Notes under the pieces: generated by a model | Told to the model about the DNA's origin: nothing | The model's input: the letters and a program-made list of their open reading frames with translations, nothing else | Databases searched by the model: none | Program-made: the position numbers and the translations under genes | Shown here: positions 17,109-27,063 of the stretch, in pieces | How the letters are laid out: every line of letters starts with the position of its first letter | Position numbering within the stretch: the first letter of the stretch is position 1 | NCBI GenBank assembly: GCA_026129685.1 | Contig: JAHCHO010000007.1 | Coordinates: 1-64,000, forward strand | Source of the DNA: Fimbriimonadaceae bacterium | GTDB lineage: Bacteria; Armatimonadota; Fimbriimonadia; Fimbriimonadales; Fimbriimonadaceae | Reading direction: 5' to 3' | DNA: 64,000 bases

Positions 17109-19511
17109 ATGGCTCTCCTCGCAATCCGCTATTTGCTTGGCTTGTTCCTTGACTTGTCGATCCTGACGACCCCGGTCTCTATGGCACAAGAGCTCTTCGT
17201 ATCTCCTGATGGGTCCGACCTGCAGGCGGGAACACGGTCACACCCGGTGCGGACCTTGGCGCACGCTCGATCGCTGGCCAGGCAGTTCGCGGGCCGGCGG
17301 GGGGTCACCGTCACCCTGATGGATGGCGATTACTTCTTGCAGGAGCCGCTGCTGCTCACGAGCGAGGACTCCGGGTCGCCTAGTGCTGCCGTCGTCTATC
17401 GAGCGCAGAACGAGGGCAAGGCGGTCTTGAGCGGAGGCATTCCGCTCGCCCTCGAATGGGAGCCCTGGCGGAACGGCATCTATCGGGCTCGGTGCCCCGT
17501 GAACAAAAGATTCGACCGCCTCTTCGCGGATGGCCAACCGCAGCCGATGGCCAGGTACCCCAATTACGATCCCACGAGGCAGGACGTTCCCTATCGTGGA
17601 GCGGCGGCCGACGCCGTCAGCCCAGAAAGGTCCGCTCGGTGGCAGAATCCGGCGGGGGGCTACATTCATGCGATGCACCCCTCGCTATGGGGCGGCTTTT
17701 CCTTTCGCATTCTCGGGAAGGGACCGAACGGGGACCTCCTCTATGAAGGTGGCTGGCAGAACAACCGTCCGGCGCCGATGCACGAGCGGTTCCGCATGGT
17801 GGAGAACGTCTTCGAGGAACTCGACGCCGCCGGTGAGTGGTTTCAGGACGTTGGCGAGGGACTGCTCTACTGGATGCCACCAACCGGTACCGACCCGGCC
17901 CGTGCGAAGATCGTAGGGGTTACCCTTGCCTCGTTGGTGGAGCTTAGGGGCTCGGCGAGCCGCCCCGTACGTTACGTCAGACTGGAAGGACTCACGTTTC
18001 GGCACACCGCCCGCACCTTCATGGACAACAAGGAGCCGCTGTTGCGCTCCGACTGGACCATTTACCGAGGCGGCACGGTGCTTTTCGAGGGAACCGAATA
18101 CTGCGGCTTGACGAACAGCTTCATCGATCAACCTGGCGGTACGGCGGTCTTCGTGAACAACTACAACCGCGGTCTCCGGCTCTCGGGTCTTCACGTCTTG
18201 GGATCGGGGGCTAGCGGGGTGGCTTTCGTCGGAGACCCTGCCGCCGTACGCAATCCCGCTTTCGGCTACCACGCGCCCCACAACCTGGCCGACCTGGACC
18301 CGGTGGTTGGCCCCCGAGGCACGAACTACCCCATGGAGTGCATCCTGGAGGACTCGCTGATCCACGAGGTCGGCACGGTGGACAAACAAGCGGCAGGCGT
18401 CCAGATTTCCATGTCGCGCAGGATCACCGTGAGGCACTGCTCCATCTATGACACGTCTCGCTCTGGCATCAACATCAACGAAGGCACCTGGGGCGGACAT
18501 CTGATCGAGGGTTGCGACGTGTTCCGAACGGTGCAAGAAACGGGCGACCACGGCTCCTTCAACTCCTGGGGAAGAGACCGCTTCTGGGTGCCGAACACCG
18601 ACGAAACGGCCGCCGAAGTTAGGAAGAATCCGAGCCTTCCCTACCTTGACGCCATGGAACCCGTGGTGATCCGGAACAGCCGCTGGCGATGCGACCACGG
18701 TTGGGACATCGACCTCGACGATGGGTCGACCAACTACATCATCGAGAACAACCTTCTTCTCAACGGTGGACTCAAACTGAGAGAGGGATACCGCCGAATC
18801 GTCAGGAACAACATCCTCGTCAATAATTCGCTCCATCCTCACGTCTGGTATCCGGCGAGCGACGATGTGTTCACCCGCAACGTGGTGATGGCGCCCTATC
18901 AACCGGCGGGCATGCGATCCGGTCAGTGGGGACGACTCCTCGATCGAAACCTCTTTGCCTGCGCCGAAGCCGACCGAGCCCGGTTTGCCGCGAACGGGGC
19001 TGACGCAACATCCGTGACGGGCAATCCCGCCTTTGCCCAACCAGACCAAGGCGACTTCACGGTCACCAACGCCGCTCTGGCCCGAGCGATCGGCTTCCGG
19101 AACTTCCCGATGGACCGTTTTGGCGTGCGGCGCCCGTCTCTACGGGCGATCTCGGACCGGCCGGCGATGCCGACGGTCACGGTCAATGTCACACGAGCCG
19201 GTGGAGAGAGATCGCGCGGCTCCTGGATGGGCGTCGTCTTCGTGCAGCCCCTTGGGCAAGAGCTTTCCGCCTACGGCGCGGGATTCGAAACCCAGGCGCT
19301 GGCGGTCGAGAGCGTCGACGCGTCTTCTCCCCTCGGCGGCCCGAACGGGCTTAGGCGGGGCGATCTCGTCCTCTCGATCAACGGGCGCCAGGCGAGCCAA
19401 GTGGACGACCTTGAGAAGGCGCTCGCGTCTGCCGCTGACCGGAAGCTGACGATTCGGCTTCTCCGATCCCAGAGAGAGCGGACCCTCGTTTTGACGCTCG
19501 GGCCGCGTTGA
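17109..19511 (+). CDS. secreted right-handed beta-helix glycosidase-like protein with C-terminal PDZ
   Basis: An 800-residue protein. An N-terminal hydrophobic segment ('LLGLFLDLSIL') acts as a likely signal sequence, followed by 'ELFVSPDGSDLQAGTRSHPV', the usual start of DUF1565/GH141-like beta-helices. Repeated short strands with asparagine turns ('NIIVRNNILVNN'-like) form the helix to about residue 660. The last about 100 residues form a PDZ domain ('GLRRGDLVLSINGRQASQVD'). The beta-helix/PDZ layout recalls GH141 enzymes acting on plant-type polysaccharides, but no catalytic residues were assigned. It follows the GH2 gene by 19 bases and may share its transcript. Confidence 0.75.
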   Translation: MALLAIRYLLGLFLDLSILTTPVSMAQELFVSPDGSDLQAGTRSHPVRTLAHARSLARQFAGRRGVTVTLMDGDYFLQEPLLLTSEDSGSPSAAVVYRAQNEGKAVLSGGIPLALEWEPWRNGIYRARCPVNKRFDRLFADGQPQPMARYPNYDPTRQDVPYRGAAADAVSPERSARWQNPAGGYIHAMHPSLWGGFSFRILGKGPNGDLLYEGGWQNNRPAPMHERFRMVENVFEELDAAGEWFQDVGEGLLYWMPPTGTDPARAKIVGVTLASLVELRGSASRPVRYVRLEGLTFRHTARTFMDNKEPLLRSDWTIYRGGTVLFEGTEYCGLTNSFIDQPGGTAVFVNNYNRGLRLSGLHVLGSGASGVAFVGDPAAVRNPAFGYHAPHNLADLDPVVGPRGTNYPMECILEDSLIHEVGTVDKQAAGVQISMSRRITVRHCSIYDTSRSGININEGTWGGHLIEGCDVFRTVQETGDHGSFNSWGRDRFWVPNTDETAAEVRKNPSLPYLDAMEPVVIRNSRWRCDHGWDIDLDDGSTNYIIENNLLLNGGLKLREGYRRIVRNNILVNNSLHPHVWYPASDDVFTRNVVMAPYQPAGMRSGQWGRLLDRNLFACAEADRARFAANGADATSVTGNPAFAQPDQGDFTVTNAALARAIGFRNFPMDRFGVRRPSLRAISDRPAMPTVTVNVTRAGGERSRGSWMGVVFVQPLGQELSAYGAGFETQALAVESVDASSPLGGPNGLRRGDLVLSINGRQASQVDDLEKALASAADRKLTIRLLRSQRERTLVLTLGPR

Positions 19512-19521
19512 GCGACCGATC

Positions 19522-19635
19522 AGAACTGGTCCGACATGAACATCTCCGGGAGGGTGGGGAAACGGTACACCATTCGTCCGACCCGTTCTCGAGGGGGACG
19601 TCCAGGTCGGTGGTGAAGGTGGCGTTGCCGATCCG
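19522..19635 (-). repeat. degenerate copy of a GNAT gene 3' end
   Basis: This stretch is nearly identical to 20230-20352, the 3' end of the GNAT gene, in the same orientation, lacking about 10 internal bases. In the copy the minus-strand end still reads 'MVYRFPTLPEMFMSDQF' (the full gene has CPTVPEMFMSDQF). It is not a gene on its own. Together the two copies form direct repeats around a VOC gene. Confidence 0.75.
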
Positions 19636-19757
19636 GGGTGACCCGTCGACGCGCGGACGGCACGACCCGGTTCGTGTATCCTTTGTCGTCGCTCGTTGCC
19701 ATTTGGACTGTCGGGAAGCCCGCGAGTCAAAGGAGTAGCGGGAGACGCGCGAATACA

Positions 19758-20132: not shown

Positions 20133-20227
20133 ACGCGGCACGGGCTGCACGACCTTGACGAGCCCTGCCGGCCCGGAACGGGCGGACTCGGGTCGTCGCC
20201 GATGAGGTGGGGTCGGACGAACCGGTT

Positions 20228-21001
20228 CTAGAACTGGTCCGACATGAACATCTCCGGGACGGTGGGGCAACGGTACACCATCATGGTCAGTTCGTCCGAC
20301 CCGTTCTCGATTGGGACGTCCAGGTCGGCGGTAACGGTCGCGGTGCCGATCCACTCGGCGGCGGTCCCGACTTCAAGCGCCCAGGGAGGGTTCGTCCAGA
20401 CCGCTTCGCGAACGACCCCGGACTCGAGCCGGAAGTAGCCGTCCATCGCCTCGTAGCACGCTCCGTAGCGCCAATCCCAGTAGCGCCAGCGGGATTCGTC
20501 CCGACGCAAGCGACCCGGCGACCCCTCGACCCAGCGGTCATACAACTCCCGCACCGTCGCCGGGTCCATCGGCTCGAGAATCGTGCTGGGCGGCACGCGC
20601 ACAAGGTTGGCCCTCACGACCCGATCGCCGTGGGTGAAGCCGAGCCGAGCGTAGAGGCGGGGATCGTGAGCGAAAAGCAGGGCGGCCTCCACCCCTTCGC
20701 GACGCAGATGATCGAGCACCTCCCGCATAAGGCGCTCGGCGAACCCCTTGCCCCGATCGATTCGACGCGTCGCGACGTTCGAAAAGCCGCTCGCCGACCC
20801 CCATCCGAATTCGAGACGAAGGACCGAAAGGATCGAAACGAGGTCGCCATGGCGGTTGAACAGTCCCCATTTCATTCGCTGATCGCGCAGGGGTTCCGTA
20901 TTGAAGGCGTGGGCGGATCGGCGTCGGTCGAGCGAGAAGGCGGCGCAGAGCAGGTCTAGGAACCGGTCGAACTCAGCCTCGTGCAGAGGACGGACTTCCA
21001 T
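20228..21001 (-). CDS. GNAT acetyltransferase (Eis-like)
   Basis: A 257-residue GNAT. Its first strand is 'MEVRPLHEAEFDRFLDLLCAAF'-like, and the acetyl-CoA loop is 'RIDRGKGFAERLMREVLDHL' (R-x-x-G-x-G/A form, about residues 73-92), followed by ARLGFTHGD. A long C-terminal domain (about 110-257) resembles Eis/MSMEG-type two-domain acetyltransferases. The start at 21001 overlaps the end of the YbbR-like gene by 28 bases, so it may be translationally coupled. The acetylated substrate is unknown. Part of its 3' end is duplicated at 19.5 kb. Confidence 0.7.
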   Translation of the reverse strand: MEVRPLHEAEFDRFLDLLCAAFSLDRRRSAHAFNTEPLRDQRMKWGLFNRHGDLVSILSVLRLEFGWGSASGFSNVATRRIDRGKGFAERLMREVLDHLRREGVEAALLFAHDPRLYARLGFTHGDRVVRANLVRVPPSTILEPMDPATVRELYDRWVEGSPGRLRRDESRWRYWDWRYGACYEAMDGYFRLESGVVREAVWTNPPWALEVGTAAEWIGTATVTADLDVPIENGSDELTMMVYRCPTVPEMFMSDQF

Positions 21002-22001
21002 CTGCGCCTCCCAGGGGCACCGTCGCCGGTCCCGGGCCACCACCGGGCGCGCTCGGCACGTCCGGGCTGCGAACGACGTTCACGCGGACCCGAACCCGAT
21101 CCACACCCCGAACCTGCAGGCCGGGAGGGGGCACCAGTTTCGCCTGGATCAGACGTCCGGACTCGATGTTGGTCACGTCAATGGGTTCGGTCTGCACGGT
21201 GAAAACGTTGGACAGCCGCTCGAACTCGCCGCGCAGGGTCACCTGGTTCGGCGTCACCTCGTACCCCTGGACCTGAAATCCGTACTTCGGCTGGCCCCGG
21301 AACGAGGGGACGACCAGGGCCTGTTTCTCGGGGACGTCGGGCATGATCGAGACGACGACCACCACTTCGACCGGATCGATCCGAACAAAGGGCACTCGCT
21401 TCCCATCCGCGTCGAGCACTTCCAGCGGGGATCGGATGACCTTGTTCTCGGCCACCTCGGCAAGGTTGAGAACCGCTCGGACGATCGACACTCGCTGAAG
21501 GAAACGACGGGGCCCGAACACCTGAACGGTGTCCGGTTGTGGGTTGTAGGACGTCATCCGCATGCCCCTTTCCAGGCGGAGCGAACCCCGGGTCGTGATT
21601 TCGATGGGTCGGACCTCGGTGACCACTTGCTCGAGGGTCACGTCGGCGAAGCGGCGGTCGAGGGCGATCCGGGCCGGGGAGGTCGGCGCCGTCAGGGCGA
21701 TCGGATAGCTTCTCGCCCCGGCGACGCCCTCGGTGAGATCTACCGTTCCGAACACCGTTTTGCGATCCACCGCCGCGACCTCTTCCTCGGTCCCTTCGAC
21801 GATGGCGCGGACCGACGTCGGCCCCCCCGTACGAACGAGGCCTTGGATGGGATCGCGGTAGACGATCGGTACGTCGAAGGTCTCCTGCTTGGGCGCCCCT
21901 TGCGGCATGTTCAGCCCCTTGACCACCGTCCAAAGCAAAATGGAGAGGAAGAGGGACAGGACCATCAGCAACAGGTTGTTGCGGAGATAGCTCCGGCTCA
22001 T
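20973..22001 (-). CDS. YbbR-domain protein (CdaR-like regulator of CdaA)
   Basis: A 342-residue protein with one N-terminal membrane helix ('NNLLLMVLSLFLSILLWTVV', about 8-27) and an extracytoplasmic portion made of several YbbR repeats ('FDVPIVYRD', 'VRAIVEGTEEEVAAV'). In Firmicutes a protein of this type sits next to and regulates the membrane diadenylate cyclase. The ATG overlaps the cdaA stop (ATGA), and this gene is followed by a GNAT. Regulation of CdaA is inferred from this arrangement. Confidence 0.8.
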   Translation of the reverse strand: MSRSYLRNNLLLMVLSLFLSILLWTVVKGLNMPQGAPKQETFDVPIVYRDPIQGLVRTGGPTSVRAIVEGTEEEVAAVDRKTVFGTVDLTEGVAGARSYPIALTAPTSPARIALDRRFADVTLEQVVTEVRPIEITTRGSLRLERGMRMTSYNPQPDTVQVFGPRRFLQRVSIVRAVLNLAEVAENKVIRSPLEVLDADGKRVPFVRIDPVEVVVVVSIMPDVPEKQALVVPSFRGQPKYGFQVQGYEVTPNQVTLRGEFERLSNVFTVQTEPIDVTNIESGRLIQAKLVPPPGLQVRGVDRVRVRVNVVRSPDVPSAPGGGPGPATVPLGGADGSPSSARG

Positions 22002-22864
22002 CCGATCGGGACCTCCTCTTCCTTCTTGGTCGGCTTTTCGCGATCCCGACGCCGCATCCGGCGCACGTTGTTCTCCTCGTTCTCGCGCACCGGGCCGCGG
22101 AGGCTTTCGACGATGGCCTTGCGGAGTTCGCCCGTCGTCACGACCTTGCGATAGTCGCCGTTCTGGGCGACGGTGACCTGCCCGCGCTCCTCGCTAACGA
22201 TCACGGTGAGGCAGTCCATGACCTCGGTGACCCCGATGCCGGCCCGGTGACGGAGGTGCATGCGGACGTCGATGCGAGGGTTCTCGCTGAGCGGAAGGCG
22301 ACAAGCCGCCGCCACGAGCGAGTTGCCGCGCACGACGACCGCGCCGTCGTGCAGAGGGTTCGCCCCGTAGAAAATCGATCCCAGCAGTTCGCGGGAGACC
22401 TTCGCGTCCAGCGGGGTGCCGCTCGCGACGACGTCCACCAAGTGCGGACCCCGCTCGATCACGATCAGCGCGCCGACGCGCTTGGTCGCCAGGTCGAAGC
22501 TGACGGCGACGATGTCGTCGATCGTCTGGTCGCTGATCGCGTGATCGGAGCGGACCAGCCGGGAGGGGATGAGCCCGATGTTGCCGAATCCCTCGAGCAT
22601 CGCGCGCAGTTCCGGCAAAAGCAGGAGGGCGATGGCGAAGGGCGCCAGCGGCACCGTCTGCTTCATCAGCCACGCCAGCGTCGCCAGCTTGAAGAACTCC
22701 GCCGCCGCCCAGACGACGACAAAACCGACGACGCCGCCCAGAATCCGCCACGCGCGCGTCCCCCGGATCAGCTTCAGCAGGCGAAACAGCAGGAAGGCGA
22801 CCAAGAGAATATCCACAAGGTCCCTGACCCAAGATTCGCCAAGGTGACGGAACAGCGTTTCCAA
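21998..22864 (-). CDS. cdaA: diadenylate cyclase CdaA
   Basis: A 288-residue membrane enzyme making cyclic di-AMP from two ATP. The N-terminal half has three membrane helices (about 12-30, 38-60 and 68-88). The DAC domain (about 100-250) carries the nucleotide-binding DGAVVV motif after 'GANPLH' and the RHRAGIG motif, both diagnostic. A basic, acidic-alternating tail (about 255-288) is longer than usual. It leads an operon with a YbbR-domain protein and a GNAT. In other bacteria such operons control cell-wall and osmotic homeostasis. Confidence 0.92.
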   Translation of the reverse strand: METLFRHLGESWVRDLVDILLVAFLLFRLLKLIRGTRAWRILGGVVGFVVVWAAAEFFKLATLAWLMKQTVPLAPFAIALLLLPELRAMLEGFGNIGLIPSRLVRSDHAISDQTIDDIVAVSFDLATKRVGALIVIERGPHLVDVVASGTPLDAKVSRELLGSIFYGANPLHDGAVVVRGNSLVAAACRLPLSENPRIDVRMHLRHRAGIGVTEVMDCLTVIVSEERGQVTVAQNGDYRKVVTTGELRKAIVESLRGPVRENEENNVRRMRRRDREKPTKKEEEVPIG

Positions 22865-23719: not shown

Positions 23720-24044
23720 CGCTTCCGAGTGTAACCCTGAGGAATCGGCTGGAGCGACCCAACTAAAGGAGAGAGCCCCGGCGGGAGAGAGCCAGGGCTG
23801 TTGGGAGGAGGATACTTCAGTATTCGGATCGCCTCGACGGAGAGAACGTCGGGAAATCTCTTTTTGTATACTGATTTGAGAGGAGGATATTCAGTTGTAG
23901 TTGGTTGGTTGGTTGGTTGGTTGCAGAACAAAATCGACTTCACCAACCGGCCCGATCGCTCGGGGTGTCCTTCCTCTCGCGTCCTCACATCGATATTCGA
24001 TTGTCTCGTCCTCGGGCTCTCCGCCCGACTCCCCGTGCCCAACG
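23720..24044 (-). ncRNA. long structured 5' leader of the phosphodiesterase gene
   Basis: Between a strong minus-strand promoter and the phosphodiesterase ATG lies about 325 bases with no gene. It holds hairpins TCGGGC...GCCCGA (24012-24028), CCCGA-TCGC-TCGGG (23951-23964) and CGACG...CGTCG (23835-23851), a (TTGG)5 run, and two copies of a GAGGAGGATA..TTCAGT motif (23805 and 23880). On the transcript strand these read TATCCTCCTC, an anti-Shine-Dalgarno-like sequence. Sequence near 23835-23925 is related to a unit in the array at 25.9 kb. It could be a regulatory leader, an sRNA or a repeat insertion. Confidence 0.45.
23901..23923 (+). repeat. (TTGG)5 tract
   Basis: Five tandem TTGG tetramers plus TTG. 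The other strand is (CCAA)n. GGTT runs can form two-tier G-quadruplexes. Confidence 0.8.
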
Positions 24045-24050
24045 ATCAAT

Positions 24051-24079
24051 ATAGTACACCCTGCCGGATCGCCTGTCAA
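24051..24079 (-). promoter_or_regulatory. sigma-70-type promoter for the phosphodiesterase leader
   Basis: On the minus strand TTGACA (24074-24079) and TACTAT (24051-24056) are separated by 17 bases. The -35 box matches consensus exactly. Transcription would begin near 24044. Confidence 0.65.
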
Positions 24080-24247: not shown

Positions 24248-24517
24248 CTAGGCGAACTGAACGACCGCTTTCAGGCGAACCGCGTCCTGCGAGGATATCG
24301 GCCGTGCGCCGCGCTGCGGCATCACCACCGTGTTCTCGCCGACTCGGCGGTTCCGCCCGCCAAACTTGAAGACGCAGGCTTTTGCCGAGGTGGCCATCAG
24401 GCTCGATGCGCTCTCCGCTTTCGCGGGAACCCATCCGAGTCCGAGGTCCGTTCTCACGCCGTCGCCTAGCGCATTGCGGCCGTTCTGGCCGCTCCAACCA
24501 ACGAAGGGATTCTTCAT
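24248..24517 (-). CDS. short hypothetical protein
   Basis: An 89-residue reading preceded by AGGAG ten bases before ATG 24517. It begins MKNPFVGWSGQNGRNALGDG and ends 'RLKAVVQFA'. No family is recognised and no membrane helix or motif is visible. It could be a small phage-like or secreted protein, or a chance open frame in GC-rich DNA. The good ribosome-binding site is the main support. Confidence 0.35.
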   Translation of the reverse strand: MKNPFVGWSGQNGRNALGDGVRTDLGLGWVPAKAESASSLMATSAKACVFKFGGRNRRVGENTVVMPQRGARPISSQDAVRLKAVVQFA

Positions 24518-24762
24518 CCTGAACGATCTCCTGAGGAATAGCTGCAAACAACACGGCCCGAATCGGGAGGCGCACTCCCGCCCGGACTCCAACCATCGCA
24601 CTCGACGAACCAAGGAGGCGCACTAAGGCCGTTACCCCCGGGGGGATGCGGACCATAGCGCGGGGGTCCTTGACCGACCGAGCCTCGTCCGGGGTCGCGT
24701 CTCGTCCTGCGGATCATGCGCGGGGCCTCCGAACGTGCGGACTGACAAAACCGTTCGTCCTT

Positions 24763-24889
24763 CGCCTCGACCGGCGCGTGAAAAGGGTGGTCCCGACCTC
24801 CCGAGAGACGCAGGGACCCCTAGCGCAGATCAAGGAAAGCTCGTCGGAACGACTCCCGCCGAGACTAGAGAAGGAGGATAGAGAAGCAA
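24763..24889 (+). repeat. structured repeat A1
   Basis: First of three near-identical units. A purine lead GAAAAGGGTGG is followed by GGTCCC...GGGACC (24789-24818), a GTCGGAACGAC hairpin, and AGAAGGAGGATAGAGAAGCAA. It differs from A2 and A3 by a single base over the core 105 bases. Confidence 0.75.
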
Positions 24890-24954
24890 AACCGGGCGGC
24901 CGGTTCACGTCCGGGGGCGGAACCCCGTCGTCGCGACCGTAACGCGCTCCTAGA

Positions 24955-25087
24955 CCCCTCGATCCGGGCGGAGAAAGGGTGGTCCCGACGTCCCGAGAGA
25001 CGCAGGGACCCCTAGCGCAGATCAAGGAAAGCTCGTCGGAACGACTCCCGCCGAGACTAGAGAAGGAGGATAGAGAAGCAAGACTTG
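24955..25087 (+). repeat. structured repeat A2
   Basis: Second copy, identical in the core to A3. It shares the upstream CCCCTCGAT.CCGGGCG and ends CAAGACTTG. Just downstream is an 11-bp GC hairpin (CCCGCCGACGT...ACGTCGGCGGG). Confidence 0.75.
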
Positions 25088-25298
25088 TCGGATCGCTCCC
25101 GCCGACGTCCAAGCACGTCGGCGGGCGGAATCCGGGCGAGGCGTCGCCGACCGTCCAGCGGCGCCGTCGCAAGGCGGCGGGCGGAGACCCGTAGAGACGC
25201 GCCGTCATGCGGCACCTCCCGGCGGCTGCCCGCGTGCGGGGACGCGATCGCGGCCCGGTGACCCGCGCCCTGGCGGCCCACCGTCGCGAATGGGCCTT

Positions 25299-25434
25299 CC
25301 CCTCGATGATCCGGGCGTGAAAAGGGTGGTCCCGACGTCCCGAGAGACGCAGGGACCCCTAGCGCAGATCAAGGAAAGCTCGTCGGAACGACTCCCGCCG
25401 AGACTAGAGAAGGAGGATAGAGAAGCAAGACTTG
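25299..25434 (+). repeat. structured repeat A3
   Basis: Third copy, with the same lead, hairpins and purine run as A2. The repeats are not evenly spaced (192 and 344 bases apart), so they are not a simple tandem array. Confidence 0.75.
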
Positions 25435-25467
25435 GTCCGCGCCGACCAGGTGGCTTGGCGCGCTTGA

Positions 25468-25572
25468 CTCGACCGCCCCGATGGGAAAGGGGTGGCCCGG
25501 TAACCAGACCGGGCCCAACCAAACCAGTACCAACCAGAGTAGGAGTAGGAGAACCGGACGGGGAGTCCGGTA
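25468..25572 (+). repeat. structured repeat B1
   Basis: First of two near-identical units. It starts CTCGACCGCCCC, carries GGGAAAGGGGTG, a perfect 8-bp stem GGCCCGGT-aaccag-ACCGGGCC (25494-25515), AACCAAACC..AACC, two GTAGGA repeats, and a 7-bp stem ACCGGAC-ggggа-like loop-GTCCGGT (25553-25571). Confidence 0.75.
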
Positions 25573-25599
25573 CGAAGGAGGACGAAAAACCGTTGCCCG

Positions 25600-25703
25600 C
25601 TCGACCGCCCCGGTGGGAAAGGGGTGGCCCGGTAACCAGACCGGGCCCAACCAAACCAGTACCAACCAGAGTAGGAGTAGGAGCGCCGGACAGGGCGTCC
25701 GGC
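25600..25703 (+). repeat. structured repeat B2
   Basis: Second copy with the same layout. The last stem is GCCGGAC...GTCCGGC (25685-25703), so its closing pair changes from A-T to G-C compared with B1, a compensatory change in a stem. Confidence 0.75.
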
Positions 25704-25894
25704 GAGGACAGAACCAAAGCGTTCGCGAGACCGGCCGGGCGCAAAACGGAGGGCATCGCGTTTCCGCGCGCCTCGCTCCAGATTTGACCAACCAACCGTT
25801 TCATCGTCTCGTCTCTCGGCGCCGGACCGCTCGAAGGGCGAGAACAGGGGGAGACGATGATGGGTGTGCGGACGCGCCCGACGTACCCAAGACG

Positions 25895-25945
25895 CGGCGC
25901 GGTTCTGCAACCAACCAACCTCTCGACGGTTCTCTCTCCGTCGAA
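25895..25945 (+). repeat. structured repeat D (related to the phosphodiesterase leader)
   Basis: GGTTCTGCAACCAACCAACC (25901-25920) is followed by a 7-bp stem TCGACGG...CCGTCGA (25923-25944). The minus strand at 23835-23925 carries the same two blocks with about 65 bases between them. Confidence 0.6.
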
Positions 25946-26190
25946 CGACCGACGACTCACTTGCGTGAGATCGCCTTCACCGACTCCGGAACGACCAACC
26001 ACGATCTCCGGAACCGGCTCGAATCCGCCTGGCGAGCGGGCCCAACTACTGCCCTGTCTCGCAAGCCGATTCGACGGCCTGCGCGATATTCAGTTTTCGC
26101 GGATCGACGGCCCTCTCAAACCGACCGACCCGCCTCGCTCGCCGCCCGCCTGGGCGACGAACAAGCCTCTACGCGACCCGTTCCCCCGAC

Positions 26191-26280
26191 TCGACCGCGA
26201 TTCCGTCCGAAGGAAGAGTGGGCTCCGGAGGGGTCTCCGGAGCCAAAGACGGAACCTGGAGTAGGGAACAGGAAGCAAAT
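26191..26280 (+). repeat. structured repeat C1
   Basis: It starts CTCGACCGCG like the B units, then has GAAGGAAGAGTGG, a 9-bp stem GGCTCCGGA-ggggtc-TCCGGAGCC (26222-26245), and ends AGGAAGCAAA like the A units. Confidence 0.6.
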
Positions 26281-26281
26281 C

Positions 26282-26400
26282 GCTCCGTCCGCCGGTGAGA
26301 AGGGTGCGCTCCGGGGCAAGCCCCGGAGCCAAACAACCAACCATAGGGGACCCCGTCCCAAGTGGACGGGAAAGGAGTAGGAGACAGAACCAAAAACCGT
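26282..26400 (+). repeat. structured repeat C2
   Basis: GGTGAGAAGGGTG precedes a 9-bp stem GCTCCGGGG-caag-CCCCGGAGC (26309-26330), then CAAACAACCAACC, a 7-bp stem CCCGTCC...GGACGGG (26353-26371), GGAGTAGGAGACAGAACC. The order of modules matches B1 and B2. Confidence 0.6.
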
Positions 26401-26413
26401 GCGCGCGACCGAG

Positions 26414-26440
26414 CGCCCGTCCGTCGGGCGTTTCCTCTCT
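26414..26440 (+). terminator. possible terminator at the end of the array
   Basis: The stem CGCCCG-tccgt-CGGGCG (26415-26431) is followed by TTTCCTCTCTCT, in the place expected if the array is transcribed on the plus strand. Confidence 0.4.
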
Positions 26441-27063
26441 CTGTCATCGATCGCGTCTTCATGACGAATCCACCTGCAAGGGGAGAGAGGGGATCCTCGC
26501 ACCGCTGCCTCGCCAGGTGAACCGACCAACCACGGAACGCCACCTGTCAAAGAAGCGAGGAAGAAATCTTTGCACCAACCAACCGGTGCGGAGAATCCTC
26601 TCACTCCACGACTCACTTACCGTAACGTCGAACGAAGCGTGCCTCGTTCGGGCCACGGGGCTTCGGACTCACGCCGTGAAGAGACAATGAGGTCGGGAAC
26701 GAGAAGTGGAGACCAAAACCAACGCTGTCCTCGCTTCTCTCAAGACGGCGACTCTTCGGTCGCTTCATCTTCCTACCCGGCCTGCACGGTCTCACGTCAC
26801 CTCGGTCTCTACTCCGAGGGCTTCGGGGCTTCTCTCGAACCCGTCAGCGCGACGCTCTCTCGAGCCGTCAACCTGTGCCTATTATCGCACACCTTTCGCG
26901 AGATGGGAGGACTTTTTCGACTTTTTTCGGTCGAGCCCGCTCCGCCCTCGGCGTTCCGGTCCGCGATCCTTCGGACTCCTTCATCCTATCACGCCCCGAC
27001 CCAAGCGTCAAGGGTTCCGCGACAAATGCCCGAAAAGCCGCGGGCCGGACGCCCGCCCCTCCT
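26441..27063. other. gene-free DNA between the array and lepA
   Basis: No gene is supported. It holds a small hairpin with AACCAACC as loop (GCACC-aaccaacc-GGTGC, 26572-26589), another hairpin CGAACGA...TCGTTCG near 26630, and more CCAAC tracts. The 3' end of lepA faces this DNA. Confidence 0.5.

Follow-up and report, generated by a model that had tools for sequence, protein, structure and literature searches.

Organization of the Locus

The DNA analyzed here is a 64,000-nt stretch of a Fimbriimonadaceae genome (hereafter the window), in which an array of repeats and its associated genes lie between lepA and a glycerophosphodiester phosphodiesterase gene. An earlier note on this DNA had described an array of structured non-coding repeats at 24763-26440. 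The array is present there, but the functional locus is larger, extending from ~23.77 to 26.93 kb, and includes a minus-strand protein gene and an adjoining small RNA (designated sRNA-M) that were absent from that note. Read on the minus strand, the locus consists of a promoter (~26.9 kb), the array, a gene encoding a small basic protein of 89 aa, a second promoter, and sRNA-M, followed by the neighboring gene. Two other members of the genus (G001 and G002; the window's own genome is G000) contain counterparts. The features, in minus-strand order, are:

26983-27011, minus strand: additional sigma-70-like promoter (TTGACG-17-TAGGAT), located between lepA and the array
26878-26930, minus strand: promoter block conserved in G001 and G002, composed of a AAAAAAGTCGAAAAAGTC tract followed by TGTGCGATAATAGG (extended -10)
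26403-26877, no strand assigned: region from unit C2 to the conserved promoter, with CCAACC motifs (plus strand)
26284-26402, probably minus strand: array unit C2, perfect 9-bp hairpin at 26308-26329
26189-26283, probably minus strand: array unit C1, perfect 10-bp hairpin at 26221-26244
25727-26188, no strand assigned: middle region, CCAACC (plus)/GGUUGG (minus) motifs, hairpin 25923-25944, and a stretch matching sRNA-M in inverse orientation
25600-25702, probably minus strand: array unit B2, 103-nt repeat, 95% identical to B1
25468-25570, probably minus strand: array unit B1, 103-nt repeat; on the minus strand, CUCCUACUCC motif and GGUUGG motifs
25304-25438, probably minus strand: array unit A3, 135-nt repeat, 90% identical to A1
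24957-25091, probably minus strand: array unit A2, 135-nt repeat, 92% identical to A1
24765-24899, probably minus strand: array unit A1, 135-nt repeat; on the minus strand, UAUCCUCCUUCUCU motif, a hairpin, and a second hairpin followed by CCCUUUUC
24248-24517, minus strand: small basic protein gene, 89 aa, pI 11.3, 45 and 44% identity to its counterparts in G001 and G002
24051-24079, minus strand: sRNA-M promoter, sigma-70-like (TTGACA-17-TACTAT; TTGACA-17-TAAAGT in G001 and G002)
23770-24045, minus strand: sRNA-M, ~275 nt, with a CCAACC run, CU-rich motifs, and a terminator hairpin at 23799-23774

The small protein is 92 aa long in G001 and G002, and the ribosome-binding site of its gene was read by eye. 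It has no match to Pfam, PADLOC, or PHROGs models at E up to 1, nor to plasmid proteins; the single NCBIfam hit (E 0.17) is meaningless, and the AlphaFold model has a mean pLDDT of 46. The best candidate relative in another genus (in G006, E 0.011) was rejected, since it overlaps a longer same-strand ORF in an ordinary gene row without an array. The CU-rich motifs of sRNA-M are UAUCCUCCUCUC, the UUCUCUC loop of a hairpin, and UAUCCUCCUCCC, and the loop of its terminator reads UCUCUCCC in the window. G001 and G002 share the promoter block, the array halves, the protein gene, the second promoter, and the terminator, with an unchanged order wherever their split contigs let it be traced. In both, inspection by eye shows a terminator-like hairpin and a T-rich tail after the protein gene, although the scan did not call it.

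Units, Hairpins, and Motifs of the Array

The near-identity of A1-A3 and of B1-B2 pointed out in the earlier note is borne out by the identities listed above, while the common module order that it described is looser than claimed, as each module is present in only part of the seven units. The exact CTCGACCG start occurs in four (A1, B1, B2, and C1), the GGGTG lead in six (all except C1), and perfect stems of at least 8 bp in the four B and C units and in none of the A units; the CCAAC-rich linker is confined to B1, B2, and C2. C1 and C2 do keep the same layout and short motifs with different stems, but do not form a joint long repeat family, and their likeness to the other units is one of layout alone. 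The stretch 26373-26405, in C2, is conserved in both G001 and G002.

The segment 24518-26880 has six perfect hairpins of at least 8 bp, whereas 100 dinucleotide-shuffled versions contain 0.52 on average and never more than 2. The plus strand of the array has 14 copies of CCAACC (1.1 expected, maximum 5 in 300 shuffles) and the minus strand has none. Pyrimidine runs on the minus strand equal, but do not surpass, the highest value in 200 shuffles (8 vs. 8 in the window). The folding energy of single A and B units on the plus strand is unremarkable (z +0.67 to -1.81) and is lower only in the C units (z -1.95 and -3.78); the region 26403-26900 folds on the plus strand with z from -3.6 to -4.1. The GGUUGG-rich minus-strand stretches at 25515-25667 and 25911-25920 may perhaps form two-tier G-quadruplexes.

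No protein frame is supported within the array, as previously stated: none of the repeat spacings (347, 226, and 244 nt) is divisible by three, and the array indels that separate G001 from G002 are of 1, 1, and 1 nt. An Rfam scan of the 64-kb window gave no match at the gathering cut-off, in line with the earlier remark that no known family fits.

Distribution and Chromosomal Location

A BLAST search with one A unit and one B unit found no further copy in the window's own 3.94-Mb genome. Among 41 genomes (this one and 40 relatives), matches to the A unit were present in three, namely the window's genome, G001 (three units), and G002 (five units). The tail pattern of the units, allowing up to three mismatches, was found in five of the 113 genomes of the order, i.e., the same trio and two single matches with two and three mismatches. 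A wider distribution was rejected on this result and on the searches with sRNA-M, the small protein, and AACCAACCAACC. An sRNA-M model gave matches in 18 of the 113 genomes at E up to 1, strong only in the three genus members (E 4.7e-31 or better), the next best having an E of 0.0027 (23 bits). Two weak matches in other genera (G053:C258:9067-9205, 23.0 bits, E 0.0027; G084:C6:59106-59176, 21.5 bits, E 0.0039) are probably due to chance. None of the 12 AACCAACCAACC sites inspected in other genera has such a locus, and the tail motif has no exact match in IMG/VR. Dispersed or transposon-borne repeats were rejected as a description, given a single locus in the genome and no match to plasmids (searched with the protein) or phages (searched with sRNA-M DNA). 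A limited survey of the literature on CCUCCUCCC with tandem sRNAs, on armatimonads, and on CCAACC/GGUUGG found nothing on the locus.

In G001 and G002 the A-type units lie at contig ends and the other half of the array at the starts of two further contigs, so the array of each relative was evidently broken by the assembly. The breaks are at the end of L124 and the starts of L125, L206, and L207, and public draft genomes will under-report loci of this kind.

The gene neighborhoods differ. In G001 and G002 the locus is flanked by genes for a DtxR/MntR-like regulator and a HAD hydrolase, and lepA is followed by another gene, without an array; the window's own genome has the HAD gene and the regulator gene on separate contigs (C13 and C18), without the locus. 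Therefore, within a single genus the same assembly of parts occupies different addresses. We saw no recombinase within the locus. With one locus per genome, no such enzyme seen in it, and a sequence under selection (see below), the earlier suggestion of selfish-element remnants is not supported. We also noted that the lepA of JADZEW010000016.1, titled Methanoregulaceae archaeon (MAG SJ84), is 85% identical to that of the window, and that the title of this record looks wrong.

Sequence Constraint

Constraint was assessed from substitutions per aligned position between G001 and G002. In sRNA-M, 2 of 245 positions differ (in addition to indels of 1 and 12 nt), and in the small protein gene 6 of 279 (2/56 fourfold sites). 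The two array halves differ at 71/1196 and 62/740 positions (6-8%), compared to 17-22% at putatively neutral sites. The HAD gene has 59/699 differences (21/120 at fourfold sites), and the gap from the small gene to sRNA-M has 36/165. Within the array, repeat cores matched by script contain 4 substitutions in 144 columns vs. 58 in 596 columns outside. As its divergence is below that of neutral sites and lowest in the cores, the array is constrained even though it has no supported reading frame. Judged from these substitution counts, selection is keeping the locus in the relatives despite its different chromosomal place.

Transcribed Strand

The earlier note had proposed a family of small RNAs. 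This remains the best class of explanation, but the strand assumed for the units was probably the wrong one, because the sole conserved promoters are on the minus strand. Read in that direction, the "purine lead and hairpin" turns into a hairpin with a pyrimidine-rich tract after it, and the "GGAG/GTAGGA" runs become a CU-rich, anti-Shine-Dalgarno-like motif. From the sequence features below we consider it quite probable that the array is read from the minus strand.

The block at the far end of the array is 81% identical to G002 over 52 nt (E 5e-6) and 80% identical to G001 over 50 nt (E 5e-5). On the minus strand it consists of AAAAAAGTCNAAAAAGTC followed by TGTGCGATAATAGG, i.e., an A-tract and an extended -10 element, and identity drops beyond the -10. 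The A-tract recurs, slightly varied, before the sRNA-M promoter in all three genomes. A promoter scan called two sites in the window's locus, both on the minus strand, and a single site in each of G001 and G002, oriented the same way; it found no plus-strand promoter for the array. The hairpins themselves also differ between strands. On the minus strand the A-type hairpin can form nine pairs, one of them G-U, and it is shorter on the plus strand. All wobbles in far-half array hairpins of at least 9 bp are G-U on the minus strand vs. A-C on the plus strand, and one of these hairpins has a UUCG loop on the minus strand.

Other observations point to the plus strand. Both CCAACC and the UUCUCUC-loop hairpin of sRNA-M recur on the plus strand of the array, where the likeness to sRNA-M includes a 19-nt identity near 25.9 kb, and the region 26403-26900 folds with z -4.07 on the plus strand vs. 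-1.20 on the minus strand. Covariation tests on the minus strand gave a consistent fraction above the null in one of four (P 0.006; the others 0.094, 0.218, and 0.332), while the four plus-strand tests gave P from 0.43 to 0.80 and the control on a protein gene gave P 0.018. The strand tests were likewise near null. The array fold is thus not demonstrated, the covariation being weak, near null, and drawn from three genomes, two of which are closely related, too few for it to prove a structure. The earlier note had named a lack of covariation in other genomes among the results that would speak against its reading; the outcome of the tests comes near to this, although the sequence is clearly constrained. 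Apart from a weak 5-pair site at 25448-25433 (minus), no array hairpin in the window was called as a terminator, and weak consensus scans found no promoters between the window's array units.

Proposed Function and Alternative Explanations

Our preferred interpretation, which we hold tentatively and at a little under an even chance, is that the locus may be a cluster of regulatory RNAs on the minus strand, accompanied by a small protein gene, in which the RNAs repress translation by pairing with Shine-Dalgarno sequences. Transcription would start near 26.88 kb, cross the array, and reach the small basic protein gene, and the array RNA would be processed into units. The second promoter, preceded by the same upstream element, would drive the terminator-ended sRNA-M. 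Pyrimidine motifs predicted to be exposed in the units and in sRNA-M (UAUCCUCCUUCUCU, CUCCUACUCC, and CCUCCUCCC) would pair with Shine-Dalgarno sequences, and the RNAs, redundant and in many copies, would repress translation of target mRNAs; the small basic protein may bind the RNAs or aid their maturation. On the minus strand of the array, CCTCC outnumbers GGAGG in each genome (8 vs. 3 in the window, 10 vs. 4 in G002, and 7 vs. 3 in G001), and sRNA-M has 3, 2, and 2 copies of CCTCC, respectively. CCUCCUCCC occurs once per sRNA-M in all three genomes, the other sites being variants, with a pairing state that is only predicted; the array units contain variants of this motif and not the exact form.

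The array and sRNA-M are complementary in a further respect. On the array's minus strand GGTTGG occurs 14, 12, and 12 times in the window, G002, and G001, with no CCAACC, and sRNA-M contains CCAACC 4, 9, and 6 times, respectively, which would let the array titrate sRNA-M. The minus-strand array could accordingly be a 2.4-kb leader of the small-protein mRNA that serves as a sponge or target of sRNA-M, its dozen GGUUGG sites and GAGAGAA loops pairing with the CCAACC run and the UUCUCUC loop. We regard this as unlikely, though the complementary counts in all three genomes speak for it, the 12-mer AACCAACCAACC is restricted to the locus in these genomes (4, 3, and 6 matches in G000, G001, and G002), and the stretch 25841-25960 forms a long complementary region with a predicted duplex energy of -130 kcal/mol. 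The mean predicted duplex energy in the window, however, is hardly above that of shuffled arrays (-88.5 vs. -86.6, sd 7.9), and the CU motifs are shared on the minus strand rather than complementary. A plus-strand sponge is a serious rival, if a slightly less likely one: the array would be a decoy with GGAGGAUA and GUAGGAG tails that soak up the CU-rich loops of sRNA-M or mimic Shine-Dalgarno sites. The A-unit tail AGGAGGAUA of the window is complementary over 9 bases to UAUCCUCCU, found twice in sRNA-M; AGGA exceeds TCCT on the plus strand (23 vs. 11 in 24515-26880), and the CCAACC and hairpin features run in the same sense as sRNA-M. There is also a precedent in Caulobacter, where the single sponge CrfA pairs with four sibling RNAs, SisA-D (PMC12559287). 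Such pairing of one RNA with a group of siblings is a model for either sponge, although here an array of units stands beside one sRNA. The complementarity is shorter in G001 and G002, because their sRNA-M reads ACCUCCUCCC, and both the lack of a plus-strand promoter in the scan and the wobbles in the strong far-half hairpins favor the minus strand.

Three explanations of another kind appear much less probable. CsrA-sequestering RNAs display GGA in many hairpin loops, and a plus-strand CsrA sponge similar to CsrB/RsmZ, with repeated GGA motifs, would fit the presence of csrA in all 25 genomes searched (G000 included) and the 20 AGGA vs. 2 TCCT on the plus strand of 24763-26440. We nevertheless find it very unlikely: overall GGA there is barely denser than its complement (53 vs. 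39 TCC), the motifs are mostly in tails with GGA in few of the listed hairpin loops, the unit structure differs from that of CsrB/RsmZ, and csrA occurs in every genome of the order that was searched vs. an array confined to one genus. The repeats and their different address in the relatives would suit a DNA-level element (protein-binding repeats or a replication/segregation site) or a mobile-element remnant, which is equally improbable in our view, as the array adjoins a conserved protein gene and a near-invariant RNA gene that has a promoter and a terminator of its own, and there is one locus per genome, no transposase was seen, and neither plasmids (protein) nor phages (sRNA-M DNA) gave a match. 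Least probable of all is a type III toxin-antitoxin-like unit, in which a small toxin gene follows a repeat RNA encoded on its own strand. The minus-strand order of promoter, repeat RNA, and small protein would agree with it, but the protein has no ToxN-like match, with none in PADLOC, Pfam, or PHROGs at E up to 1, and the array units are long and of several types, while ToxIN repeats are short and uniform.

The preferred reading, a minus-strand cluster acting on Shine-Dalgarno sequences, could be taken further. In this extended and unlikely form, the locus would be a self-contained, chromosomally relocating riboregulatory module that has not been described before, combining a near-invariant CCAACC/anti-Shine-Dalgarno sRNA, a duplicating array with copied CU motifs and a dozen complementary GGUUGG sites, whose single transcript would be both effector and sponge, and a basic protein found in this genus alone.

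Comparison with Known Systems

The closest parallels to a minus-strand cluster are the αr14 (NfeR1)/"cuckoo" RNAs and the CcsR1-4/CcaF1 system (CIN1 locus) of Alphaproteobacteria. αr14 RNAs have the CCUCCUCCC motif in three hairpins with differing stems, and NfeR1 represses an mRNA at the translation initiation region (PMC10746234); in Rhodobacter, RNase E excises four CcsR RNAs from a transcript that they share with the mRNA of CcaF1, an RNA-binding protein of 71 aa (PMC10253847). In the present locus, too, related RNA units in tandem stand next to a small protein gene, and CU-rich anti-Shine-Dalgarno motifs are kept while stems vary, with the exact CCUCCUCCC in the sRNA-M of all three genomes. 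Unlike in the CIN1 locus, the array precedes the protein gene and carries GGUUGG motifs, and a second promoter drives one RNA. In an Rfam scan of sRNA-M that was run after αr14 had been chosen as a comparison, ar14 (RF02344) aligned to the window's sRNA-M over its full length (1-123) but below significance, with 17.8 bits vs. a cut-off of 58.8 (E 0.26 in 311 bases), and did not match the sRNA-M of G002 at E up to 10. Other Rfam hits, such as ZMP-ZTP (21.6 vs. 39 bits) and CRISPR repeats, were treated as chance. DUF1127, the domain of the CIN1 small protein, gave no Pfam match in the small protein at E up to 1. As the anatomy fits the plan and the sequence families do not match, we suggest by analogy that the locus works like αr14/CcsR, and do not consider it a demonstrated member.

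In Listeria, the LhrC RNAs (LhrC1-5) are multicopy, each with several redundant CU-rich sites including one in the terminator loop (PMC4132741), and in this respect resemble sRNA-M of the window with UCUCUCCC in its terminator loop. The present locus differs from LhrC in having no Rfam match at the cut-off and an attached small protein gene, and the scans gave its units no promoters or terminators of their own (with the exception of the one weak site).

If our interpretation is true, clusters of anti-Shine-Dalgarno RNAs with a small basic protein, known from Alphaproteobacteria, would have arisen in parallel in another lineage, without a matching Rfam family and without a protein family, and an RNA effector would lie beside a complementary array, the two being testable as one unit. 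The strand needs to be settled before such repeats are modeled.

Neighboring Features

Genes for a cdaA-like diadenylate cyclase and ybbR are located near the locus, at 20973-22864 on the same strand; Rfam detected no c-di-AMP riboswitch in the 64-kb window. Further along, at ~19500-19700 and 20210-20330, the translations (e.g., HEHLREGGETVHH and HEHLRDGGATVHH) suggest a second, unrelated short intergenic stretch that has been duplicated.
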